Position numbers and translations under genes: made by a program. Source: Haloprofundus halophilus (GTDB taxonomy: Archaea > Halobacteriota > Halobacteria > Halobacteriales > Haloferacaceae). From it: 64,000 bases of DNA. Below are positions 50,468 to 62,874 of this stretch, in pieces. Position 1 is the first letter of the stretch. Every line of letters starts with the position of its first letter. The DNA lies in NCBI RefSeq assembly GCF_003439925.1, contig NZ_QQRR01000001.1, forward strand, positions 744,001 through 808,000, written 5' to 3'. The notes beneath the pieces are model-generated. The model saw nothing but the letters and a program-made list of their open reading frames with translations, ran no database searches and was not told the origin of the DNA.

Positions 50468-50540
50468 GCCGGTGTAGCTCAGCTGGCAGAGCGATTCCTT
50501 CGTAAGGAATAGGCCGAGGGTTCAAATCCCTCCACCGGCT
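50468..50540 (+). tRNA. tRNA-Thr, anticodon CGT
   Basis: 73-nt cloverleaf. Acceptor GCCGGTG pairs with CACCGGC at 50533-50539; D-arm GCTC/GAGC; anticodon stem ATTCC/GGAAT around loop TTCGTAA, so the anticodon is CGT; T-arm GAGGG/CCCTC around TTCAAAT. Discriminator T, no encoded CCA, no intron. A T-run follows at 50541. The anticodon reads ACG, threonine. Confidence 0.93.
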
Positions 50541-50545: not shown

Positions 50546-51193
50546 TGCGACGAACCCCGTGCAGAGCGAAGCGAACCGCGAGCGACTCGAATCGGTGCCG
50601 AGCGACGCACCGACCGCGCCCCCGGGTCCGCGCACCGGTTTGCGTCTGTCCACGGTATCGCGTCTCTGTCCGCCGAACATCCTCCGGTGAGTCCTCTGTT
50701 TAGCCAAGTTTCGTCGCGGACGTCGTGGCCGACAGATAGTGGCGACCGTCGAAAGAAGTCTGTCCGTGTGCCTACTACGGGGCAGACCCCTTTCTCGGAG
50801 TCGCCACTTATGAGACCATGCCCGGAGTATAAGCACTTATCGAATAACCTATAGTTTGAGCGGTGATTCGGTCCGGGCAGCATGTCTTCCCGAGGCCGAA
50901 GCCGCTCGAACCACTCTCGGGTCTCGCCACCGAGCGAATCGGCGCTCACGAGGTTCGCTCACGAGGTCTGCGTACGTGACTGACGCTCGCCGAAAGCGCC
51001 CGTCTTCCAAACGACCCAGAGACACTCGCTTCGTTTCCCCGTAGACGGTCGGGTTCGGTGAGACACGAAAGGGTTCGACACCGAAAACGTCCGGTCGGGC
51101 GATGGTCCCCCTTTCGACCCGGCTCCGACCGGTGTGCTCGTCGCTAACGTGACCACCAGATAATTTATTACAACTTACGTATTACAATCTTAT
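50541..51193. other. Long non-coding stretch between tRNA-Thr and the HalOD1 gene
   Basis: About 650 nt without a gene I can defend. The longest minus-strand frame here is translated from the antisense of the tRNA and is not credible. Contents: the nested stem-loop 50738-50808, an AT-rich patch at about 50829-50860 with several promoter-like TATA words, and the AT-rich promoter of the HalOD1 gene (about 51160-51192). Confidence 0.6.
50738..50808. ncRNA. Nested stem-loop, candidate structured RNA
   Basis: Three coaxial helices can form: 9 bp AGTGGCGAC/GTCGCCACT (50738-50746 with 50800-50808), 5 bp GAAAG/CTTTC (50751-50755 with 50790-50794) and 8 bp GTCTGTCC/GGGCAGAC-type (50758-50765 with 50780-50787, one G-U pair), closing a 14-nt loop. 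All pairs are strictly nested over 71 nt of non-coding DNA. Strand and function are unknown; a riboregulator, a processed small RNA or a DNA element are all possible. Confidence 0.5.
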
Positions 51194-51544
51194 GTGCCTA
51201 CTACGGGTAAAATTCCACAACAGATTACGTCGCCCGGCATCAGCGTCCCGACGTACGCGATAGATATCACGGAAGCGATGGCCGGCGAGGACGTCTCCAC
51301 GGCGATCATCATGTCGATCGCGGCCATCGAAGGACGCGACCCGCTGGACCTCGATCCGATGTTCGACGACATCGAGACCGATTCGCTGAACACGCTGTTC
51401 AACTCCCCGTCGAACGATCTCCACGTCCAGTTCACCACGAACGGATGGAACGTGCAGCTTCACGGCTCGGGCGAGGCCATTTTCGAGCGCCAGATCTCTC
51501 TGTCCGAGGCTTCCGGGCCGAACTCCGAGAAATCGACCGCGTAG
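51194..51544 (+). CDS. HalOD1 (halobacterial output domain 1) protein
   Basis: 116 residues from GTG 51194 (MPTTGKIPQQ). The HalOD1 pattern is DVSTAIIMSIAAIEGRDPLDLDPMFDDIETDSLNTLF (about 33-70) followed by VQFTTNGWNVQLHGSGEAIF. The domain is common in haloarchaeal signalling, alone or behind receiver domains, but its output is unknown. TATA-like AATTTATTAC about 30 nt upstream supports a leaderless start. Ends with a charged tail. Confidence 0.75.
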   Translation: MPTTGKIPQQITSPGISVPTYAIDITEAMAGEDVSTAIIMSIAAIEGRDPLDLDPMFDDIETDSLNTLFNSPSNDLHVQFTTNGWNVQLHGSGEAIFERQISLSEASGPNSEKSTA

Positions 51545-52073: not shown

Positions 52074-52490
52074 TCAGGGCCACCCGGCCGGGAGTTCCTC
52101 TCGGTGTTCGTCGAGGAGTTCGAGCAGCGGTGTCGCCTCCTCGAGCAACGGACCGCGTCGTATCGTCGCGCGTTCTTGGTCCCAGTCGACGAACCCCGCT
52201 TCGTTGAGCTGCGGCAGGTGAACGTGGTAGAGGTTCTCGGGGGCGACGCCCGCCTCGGCCAGTTCGGCGGCGAACCGTTCCAGTTCGACGGCCTCGTCGG
52301 CGCCGTACTCCCGCGCTAGAAAAACGAGGATGCGTCGACGCGACTGGTGGCTCAACGTACGAAAGAGACAGTCGAGTGTCGTAGCGCTCCAGTCGTGTTC
52401 GGTCACCGACTGACGCCCCCGGACCGTCTCCTGTAGCTTTGCGAGAATACCATCCGTTCGAGAACTACTACGCTCGGAACAATCAACCAC
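52074..52490 (-). CDS. HTH protein with DUF7344-like domain
   Basis: 138 residues from GTG 52490 (MVDCSERSSSRTDGIL). The DUF7344 winged-helix pattern is LDCLFRTLSHQSRRRILVFLAREYGADEAVELERFAAEL then NLYHVHLPQLNEAGFVDWDQERATIRRGP. A TATA-like GATAAAAGTC on the minus strand at about 52508-52518 supports this GTG. Likely DNA-binding regulator; target unknown. The 272-nt gap to 51802 holds the palindromic promoter and otherwise nothing. Confidence 0.78.
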   Translation of the reverse strand: MVDCSERSSSRTDGILAKLQETVRGRQSVTEHDWSATTLDCLFRTLSHQSRRRILVFLAREYGADEAVELERFAAELAEAGVAPENLYHVHLPQLNEAGFVDWDQERATIRRGPLLEEATPLLELLDEHREELPAGWP

Positions 52491-62673: not shown

Positions 62674-62789
62674 CACTCACCTATGGAAGCACTCGCCTGT
62701 GTCACTCACCTATGGAAGCACTCGCCTGTGTCACTCACCTATGGAAGCACTCGCCTGTGTCACTCACCTATGGAAGCACTCGCCTGTGT
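62674..62789. repeat. 29-bp tandem repeat, four perfect copies
   Basis: Units start at 62674, 62703, 62732 and 62761; each contains CACTCACCTATGGAAG then CACTCGCCTGTGT. The four are identical to the base. Unit length is not a multiple of 3 and there are no spacers, so it is neither coding nor CRISPR. It sits about 75-190 bp upstream of the DRG ATG, beyond its likely promoter. Confidence 0.95.
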
Positions 62790-62874
62790 CGTCCTTCGCG
62801 CGCGCGGAGCGCACGCGAGACTGTCGCTGATTTCGGTACCGTTATACGACATTACGGCAACCATTCGACGAGCG

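Follow-up and report, generated by a model that had tools for sequence, protein, structure and literature searches.

A candidate family of hairpin antisense RNAs in haloarchaeal viruses, with a chromosomal member predicted to repress a HalOD1 gene by pairing with the 5' end of its mRNA

Introduction

The bacterial kissing-loop antisense RNAs, such as ColE1 RNAI, R1 CopA, and Sok, consist of a stable stem and an exposed loop that starts pairing with the 5' region of the target; they are encoded in cis and are fully complementary to their targets. In the RNAs considered here, by contrast, only the loop is complementary; they are archaeal or viral, and they are unrelated by sequence to the bacterial examples (no Rfam match). 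Within archaea, the likeness is to Methanosarcina sRNA162, Haloferax s479, and sRNA132, i.e., to intergenic small RNAs with an mRNA target, although no sequence relation to them was found, and the present RNA differs from them in having a dedicated target, adjacent or in the same genome, and in having viral kin.

The closest precedent comes from the halovirus PhiH, whose antisense RNA (Tant) acts on the early lytic transcript T1 and makes it a substrate for a host RNase, so that the translation start region is removed (PMC4284463); this RNA also contributes to immunity (PMC4284463, PMC8707807). Common to both cases are a haloarchaeal virus and a small RNA that is antisense to one of the early mRNAs of a virus. 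However, the PhiH RNA is encoded in cis, opposite its target, whereas here RNA and target lie apart, by 23-40 kb in the viruses and by 0.4 kb, on the other strand, in the host. Moreover, pairing proceeds here via a hairpin loop (15 nt in the window) and not through the extended complementarity that characterises the cis-antisense Tant, and we claim no homology to PhiH. Antisense RNAs of such a kind are known in general; for this RNA family, the geometry of a loop facing a leaderless start, and the distribution between viruses and hosts, no description was found in the literature and libraries searched.

Comparison of structure, strand preference, conservation, homology, and loop-target complementarity with its covariation makes it quite probable that these hairpins form an undescribed family of antisense RNAs of haloarchaeal viruses, whose chromosomal member would repress a HalOD1 gene by kissing the 5' end of its mRNA.

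The hairpin and its conservation

The window analysed is a 64-kb stretch of haloarchaeal DNA (G000:C1:744001-808000), in which a preliminary description had reported a nested hairpin of 71 nt (50738-50808). The locus comprises the following features:

50468-50540, plus strand: tRNA-Thr (CGT), found by ARAGORN; a syntenic neighbour, given for context
50736-50810, minus strand: predicted hairpin small RNA gene, with a stem of 10 bp + 12 bp and a 20-nt apical loop region, matched by models R1/R2 and recognised by its folds, conservation, minus-strand pairing, and distant homologues
51194-51544, plus strand: gene for a stand-alone HalOD1-domain protein of 116 aa (Pfam PF18545, E 4.2e-15; GTG start at 51194), the predicted target
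52074-52490, minus strand: gene for a DUF7344 protein (Pfam PF24035), 0.5 kb beyond the HalOD1 gene

Sequence and folding reproduce on the plus strand exactly the nested helices of 9, 5, and 8 bp and the 14-nt loop that had been claimed, at 50738-50746/50800-50808, 50751-50755/50790-50794, and 50758-50765/50780-50787 (the last with one G-U), around the loop at 50766-50779. The minimum free energy is -36.8 kcal/mol on the plus and -39.3 kcal/mol on the minus strand, with shuffle means of approx. -21 (z = -5.1 and -5.5, respectively). None of 200 shuffles folds as well on either strand; the claimed rarity by chance is thus borne out. It should be noted that the raw energy is matched by 404 of 21,311 plus-strand windows (approx. 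2%) and 140 of 21,311 minus-strand windows within the GC-rich 64 kb. Since the energy alone is unexceptional in such DNA, conservation is the stronger evidence.

The hairpin occurs as a single copy per genome in four of the five genomes of the genus, with 96-99% identity, and is always flanked by tRNA-Thr(CGT) and the HalOD1 gene. In the four-way alignment of the congeners, 65 of its 71 columns (92%) are invariant, compared with 28 of 197 in the spacer on the tRNA side and 29 of 240 in the one beyond, downstream (about 12-14%); the other conserved islands are the 42 nt adjoining the hairpin (67%) and the start of HalOD1 (37 of 40). The HalOD1 gene is found only in the four congeners that carry the hairpin. 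The fifth species (G002) lacks both, together with the DUF7344 gene, and retains the small ORF between them (tblastn included). Among the congeners, the DUF7344 protein diverges fast (41-66% amino acid identity vs. 78-89% for HalOD1). Scans of genome contigs by way of the HalOD1 protein or the hairpin pattern returned nothing, and the hairpin has no Rfam match above the gathering threshold, the tRNA alone being found. The setting between tRNA-Thr and a signalling-domain gene, as first described, is confirmed by synteny, with the correction that the signalling gene appears to be the likely target and not merely a neighbour.

Coding strand and promoter

Pairing on the minus strand (10 + 12 bp) is longer than on the plus strand, with a G-U on the minus strand where the plus strand has A-C. 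In the congener alignment, 97% of the cells pair on the minus strand vs. 81% on the plus strand. Substitutions at the outer pairs and at the helix end turn G-C into G-U, or A-U into G-C or G-U, when read on the minus strand; most of them would be A-C mismatches on the plus strand, with one inner position behaving in the opposite way. Stem mutations without compensation had been named as an outcome that would speak against a structured RNA, and every congener change in the two main minus-strand helices keeps its pair; the only unpaired cells belong to one inner C-A position at the base of the loop, in three of the four species. Among the 11 homologues described below, the sense strand folds better than the antisense strand in 10.

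Upstream of the stem, two further elements are conserved:

50828-50833, minus strand: predicted TATA box CTTATA of the small RNA, positioned from the consensus, 25 nt before the stem; GCTTATA is invariant in the four congeners
50834-50890, minus strand: conserved upstream region of the putative promoter, with a BRE-like GATAAG and a further conserved block

Invariant columns amount to 28 of 42 at 50809-50850 and 22 of 40 at 50851-50890 vs. 12% beyond. The promoter consensus (TTWT/BRE) was taken from published work (PMC4983044), and 5' ends were derived from TATA spacing, which would place the 5' end of the small RNA at the outer end of the stem, +/- 5 nt. No terminator was seen after the hairpin in the window, and a scan for sigma-70 promoters and intrinsic terminators yielded nothing, sigma-70 being the wrong promoter type here. 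Pair conservation and a conserved TATA box approx. 25 nt upstream point to the same strand, and the assignment of the small RNA to the minus strand is well supported by comparison. A processed leader had been suggested earlier; since such an RNA would be divergent from the signalling gene, it would not be a processed leader of that gene.

The loop and the start of HalOD1

The proposed contact involves three short elements:

50767-50781, minus strand: loop segment CCCGTAGTAGGCACA, the exact reverse complement of the HalOD1 start region
51193-51207, plus strand: target site TGTGCCTACTACGGG over the GTG start codon, within the conserved island 51181-51220 and identical to 50767-50781 on the plus strand
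51163-51169, plus strand: TATA box of HalOD1, approx. 28 nt before GTG, predicting a transcript start at GTG or at most 2 nt from it

The two copies of TGTGCCTACTACGGG are exact repeats and the sole sites in the genome with at most one mismatch. Given that 29 other 15-nt repeat pairs lie within 1 kb in the window, many of them tandem, the repeat alone is unremarkable; what distinguishes it is its place in the loop and on the start codon. Elsewhere in the window, a tandem array of 29-nt units (approx. four copies) is located at 62674-62790. In the 64-kb window, the best duplex partner of the loop outside the hairpin is the start of HalOD1 (-30.3 vs. -23.2 kcal/mol for the next best). The first nine HalOD1 codons show no change of any kind in the four species, whereas 61 of 116 codons after the start vary (hypergeometric p of approx. 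0.002 for the nine frozen codons). The loop of one congener (G003) carries a change that is not found in its target and leaves one uncompensated mismatch.

Because of the spacing of its TATA box, the HalOD1 mRNA is predicted to be leaderless, and it probably is; leaderless transcripts comprise 72% of the protein-coding transcripts of Haloferax volcanii, where native GUG starts occur (PMC4983044). The loop of the minus-strand RNA would be antisense to the predicted 5' end of this mRNA, and the pairing is well supported by comparison. As a separate observation, an out-of-frame ATG 2 nt before the HalOD1 GTG opens a 23-codon frame that ends in TAG (51192-51265), is open in L003 too, and might act as a competing start if the mRNA is leaderless. 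The stem and the 3' end of HalOD1 also share a perfect inverted match of 11 nt (50791-50801/51522-51532); the gene end differs there in G001 and G004, and the match was taken as chance.

Homologous hairpins in proviruses and viruses

Two covariance models were used, R1 from the four hairpins of the genus and R2 also built on provirus copies. In 170 genomes of the family, R1 had no match beyond the genus; a broader sampling of the order gave strong matches in G428 and G324, which belong to two other families. Each has two copies of the hairpin, approx. 1 kb apart, with a common loop core and different stems, and R2 scores range from 46 to 77 bits (74-77 for copies b, 46-60 for copies a). The G428 hairpins adjoin the small terminase gene of a tailed provirus, in which genes for portal, large terminase, protease, and major head proteins are also present, and the G324 locus resembles this one, leader and flanking sequence being common to both. 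The order in G428 is hairpin a, HalOD1, hairpin b, DUF7344, and the window likewise has hairpin, HalOD1, DUF7344; it should be noted that HalOD1 and DUF7344 are large haloarchaeal families and that the window and G428 proteins are only approx. 30% identical. In both proviruses, a TATA box is found 25-26 nt before the stem of copy b, on the strand predicted for the window; none was seen before copies a. Covariation among homologues, which had been proposed as a check, was found: across eight hairpins, nine stem pairs changed on both sides, a result reached in none of 500 shuffles.

Outside proviruses, divergent homologues occupy the corresponding place: the isolated Halorubrum virus HRTV-25 (L170) has two hairpins with the loop core CUCGUGGUAGGCA beside its small terminase gene (small terminase 59% identical), and the IMG/VR contig L126/L147, reached through TerS, has one with the loop UCUCCGUGGUAGGC. 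Model scores of these hairpins are weak (20-25 bits), and they were accepted because of their position and loop. A long stem with the loop core GTrGTAGGC is common to the RNA family, with one loop change in G003. Within the Hafunaviridae, HRTV-25 has two loop-bearing hairpins by the small terminase gene, and HF2 has a HalOD1 gene in that place; HRTV-27 and HF2, however, lack such a hairpin with a matching target, and the window locus lacks virus genes.

Several candidates were rejected. HRTV-27 contains two inverted repeats with CUUGGUAGG and no matching target; these repeats lie near its small terminase gene (L128, approx. 930 and 1262), share the core CTTGGTAGG, and are each other's only complements. 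Other weak R1 matches (G269, G300, G050, and G323, among others) have no conserved loop or only part of the stem. Most pattern matches in viral contigs are unrelated, the motif occurring by chance or in coding-like sequence, and the relevant ones are L134, L170 (HRTV-25), and L126/L147. A group of IMG/VR contigs (L162, L165, L167, L172, L176, L180, and L182) shares a conserved stretch with CGTAGTAGGCAAGCGG that folds and is coding-like; a relation to the loop is unlikely. Plasmid records contained no relative of TerS or of the zinc-finger protein discussed below. As regards annotation, hypothetical genes of HRTV-25 (L130 232-390 and 506-667, minus strand) overlap or adjoin the two hairpins and may be spurious.

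Viral targets and loop-target covariation

In G428 and G324, the element contains one further occurrence of the reverse complement of the loop, 23 kb off, inside CTGCCTACTACGGGGACGAyGCTCCCTCyTGAA. This site starts approx. 30 nt downstream from where a TATA box begins, and it precedes by approx. 110 nt a small putative zinc-finger gene, which is located downstream of an exonuclease gene; an identical leader is present in the IMG/VR contig L134. Of 392 genomes, only G428 and G324, both of which carry the viral hairpins, contain the exact leader motif TGCCTACYACGGGGACGAYG; in both, it directly follows a TATA box. The leader of the HRTV-25 zinc-finger gene begins with UUGCCUACCGCGA, again after a TATA box. 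For L126/L147, the leader predicted from the loop was GCCUAC(C/U)ACGGAG or a wobble variant, and the one found, GCCUACCACGGGGA, pairs throughout with one G-U. One-mismatch leader matches in G093, G115, G334, and G402 have no adjoining zinc-finger gene and were rejected.

Taken together, 11 of 11 hairpins are complementary to their own target over 12-15 nt (12-14 nt in the viral cases), that of G003 with one mismatch. Compensatory change is seen at two positions: at the first, U in the mRNA is met by A or G in the loop and C by G only; at the second, G is met by C in most cases or by U in L126, and A by U in HRTV-25. This covariation is limited to those two positions and to few lineages. In HRTV-25, the leader is the best partner outside the hairpins for one loop, by a small margin, and is not among the listed best duplex partners of the second; since the energy ranking is weak, the case of this virus rests on position. 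In several cases, the viral motif reads NTG-CCT-AC, into which L147 with TCG does not fit. The HRTV-25 gene gp060 (L130 39674-39835, minus strand) is annotated as starting with a TTG at the very beginning of the loop-complementary site, as a leaderless ORF would.

The preliminary description had proposed a new structured RNA as a candidate, with a small regulatory RNA as one possibility. This proposal holds: Rfam has no match, and conservation, strand-specific pairing, covariation within the stem, and covariation between loop and target support a functional RNA.

Proposed mechanism and alternatives

We infer that the small RNA would be transcribed from its own TATA box on the minus strand, away from HalOD1, and would form one long stem presenting a loop antisense to the first ~15 nt of the HalOD1 mRNA, including GUG. 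Kissing between the loop and the mRNA 5' end would block access to the start codon and/or expose the mRNA to cleavage, and HalOD1 would be repressed; since the loop would cover the start codon, blocked ribosome access makes repression the natural outcome. Tailed viruses resembling Hafunaviridae would carry such hairpins, usually two, antisense to the 5' end of a transcript of the replication region. As the viral site lies approx. 110 nt before the main ORF, blocking of the start codon could be common to all cases only if a short leaderless ORF is counted, and such an ORF may be the first target in HRTV-25 too. Cleavage at the duplex end is a plausible second step, because the PhiH antisense RNA renders an early lytic mRNA RNase-sensitive.

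It is possible, albeit rather unlikely, that the RNA activates or stabilises its target by covering the 5' end instead of repressing it. The site is the extreme predicted 5' end in all cases, and a distance of ~110 nt to the viral main ORF would suit 5'-end protection; yet the HalOD1 start codon itself would be buried, and the halovirus precedent is inhibitory (PMC4284463).

We are more doubtful that the motif is a DNA site, at which a regulator binds TGCCTACTACGGG at the HalOD1 start and in the upstream inverted repeat with no RNA made. Each genome does contain the motif twice, in the same strand orientation relative to HalOD1, and the viral motif directly follows TATA boxes, a location at which archaeal repressors can bind. 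Nonetheless, inverted-repeat DNA would not favour G-T over A-C, whereas the pairing is strand-biased and the sense strand is the better folder in 10 of 11 hairpins; loop-target changes include G-U intermediates, stems of differing sequence stay stems, and the TATA box keeps a fixed distance.

An RNA read from the plus strand could mimic the 5' end of the HalOD1 mRNA, to which its loop is identical in sense, or serve as its decoy, but pairing on this strand is broken at several positions in all species, the sole conserved TATA box at a suitable distance faces the opposite way, and the provirus copies preceded by TATA boxes are oriented as predicted for the minus strand, which makes this reading very improbable. 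Finally, a mobile (MITE-like) or chance inverted repeat without function, which the perfect terminal inverted repeat and the many equally stable GC-rich windows might suggest, can practically be dismissed in view of one syntenic copy in each genome, 92% invariance in four species, and matched targets in independent lineages.

Origin and significance

If the hairpin is an antisense RNA as proposed, the window copy is perhaps a stable chromosomal member of viral origin. The viral kinship and the location beside a tRNA gene, where most haloarchaeal proviruses integrate (PMC8651126), suggest that the RNA came from a virus and was later domesticated. No virus genes were found at the host locus and no att-like repeat of the tRNA-Thr end around it; TerS was not found in 68 relatives, including the genus, a set that contained no positive control for this query. 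Transfer in the reverse direction, from host to virus, is conceivable as well. The host loop CCCCGUAGUAGGCA is perfectly complementary to the predicted replication-region mRNA 5' end of viruses of the G428/G324/L134 type, UGCCUACUACGGGG. It is conceivable, although rather unlikely, that the chromosomal RNA derives from a viral antisense RNA that has been domesticated for the protection of the host, silencing incoming viruses while also, or through, controlling HalOD1. If true, archaea would possess a form of antisense immunity that is fixed and needs no protein.

In haloarchaea, the majority of mRNAs lack a leader, which raises the question of how small RNAs gain access to them; the locus described here offers a compact and testable case, in which the loop would sit on the start codon. 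Since HRTV-25 has been isolated, culture experiments can put the prediction to the test. The lysis-lysogeny control of haloarchaeal tailed viruses has been described as unexplored (PMC8707807), and the present finding points to an unstudied layer of RNA in these viruses and to an exchange of RNAs between viruses and host chromosomes.
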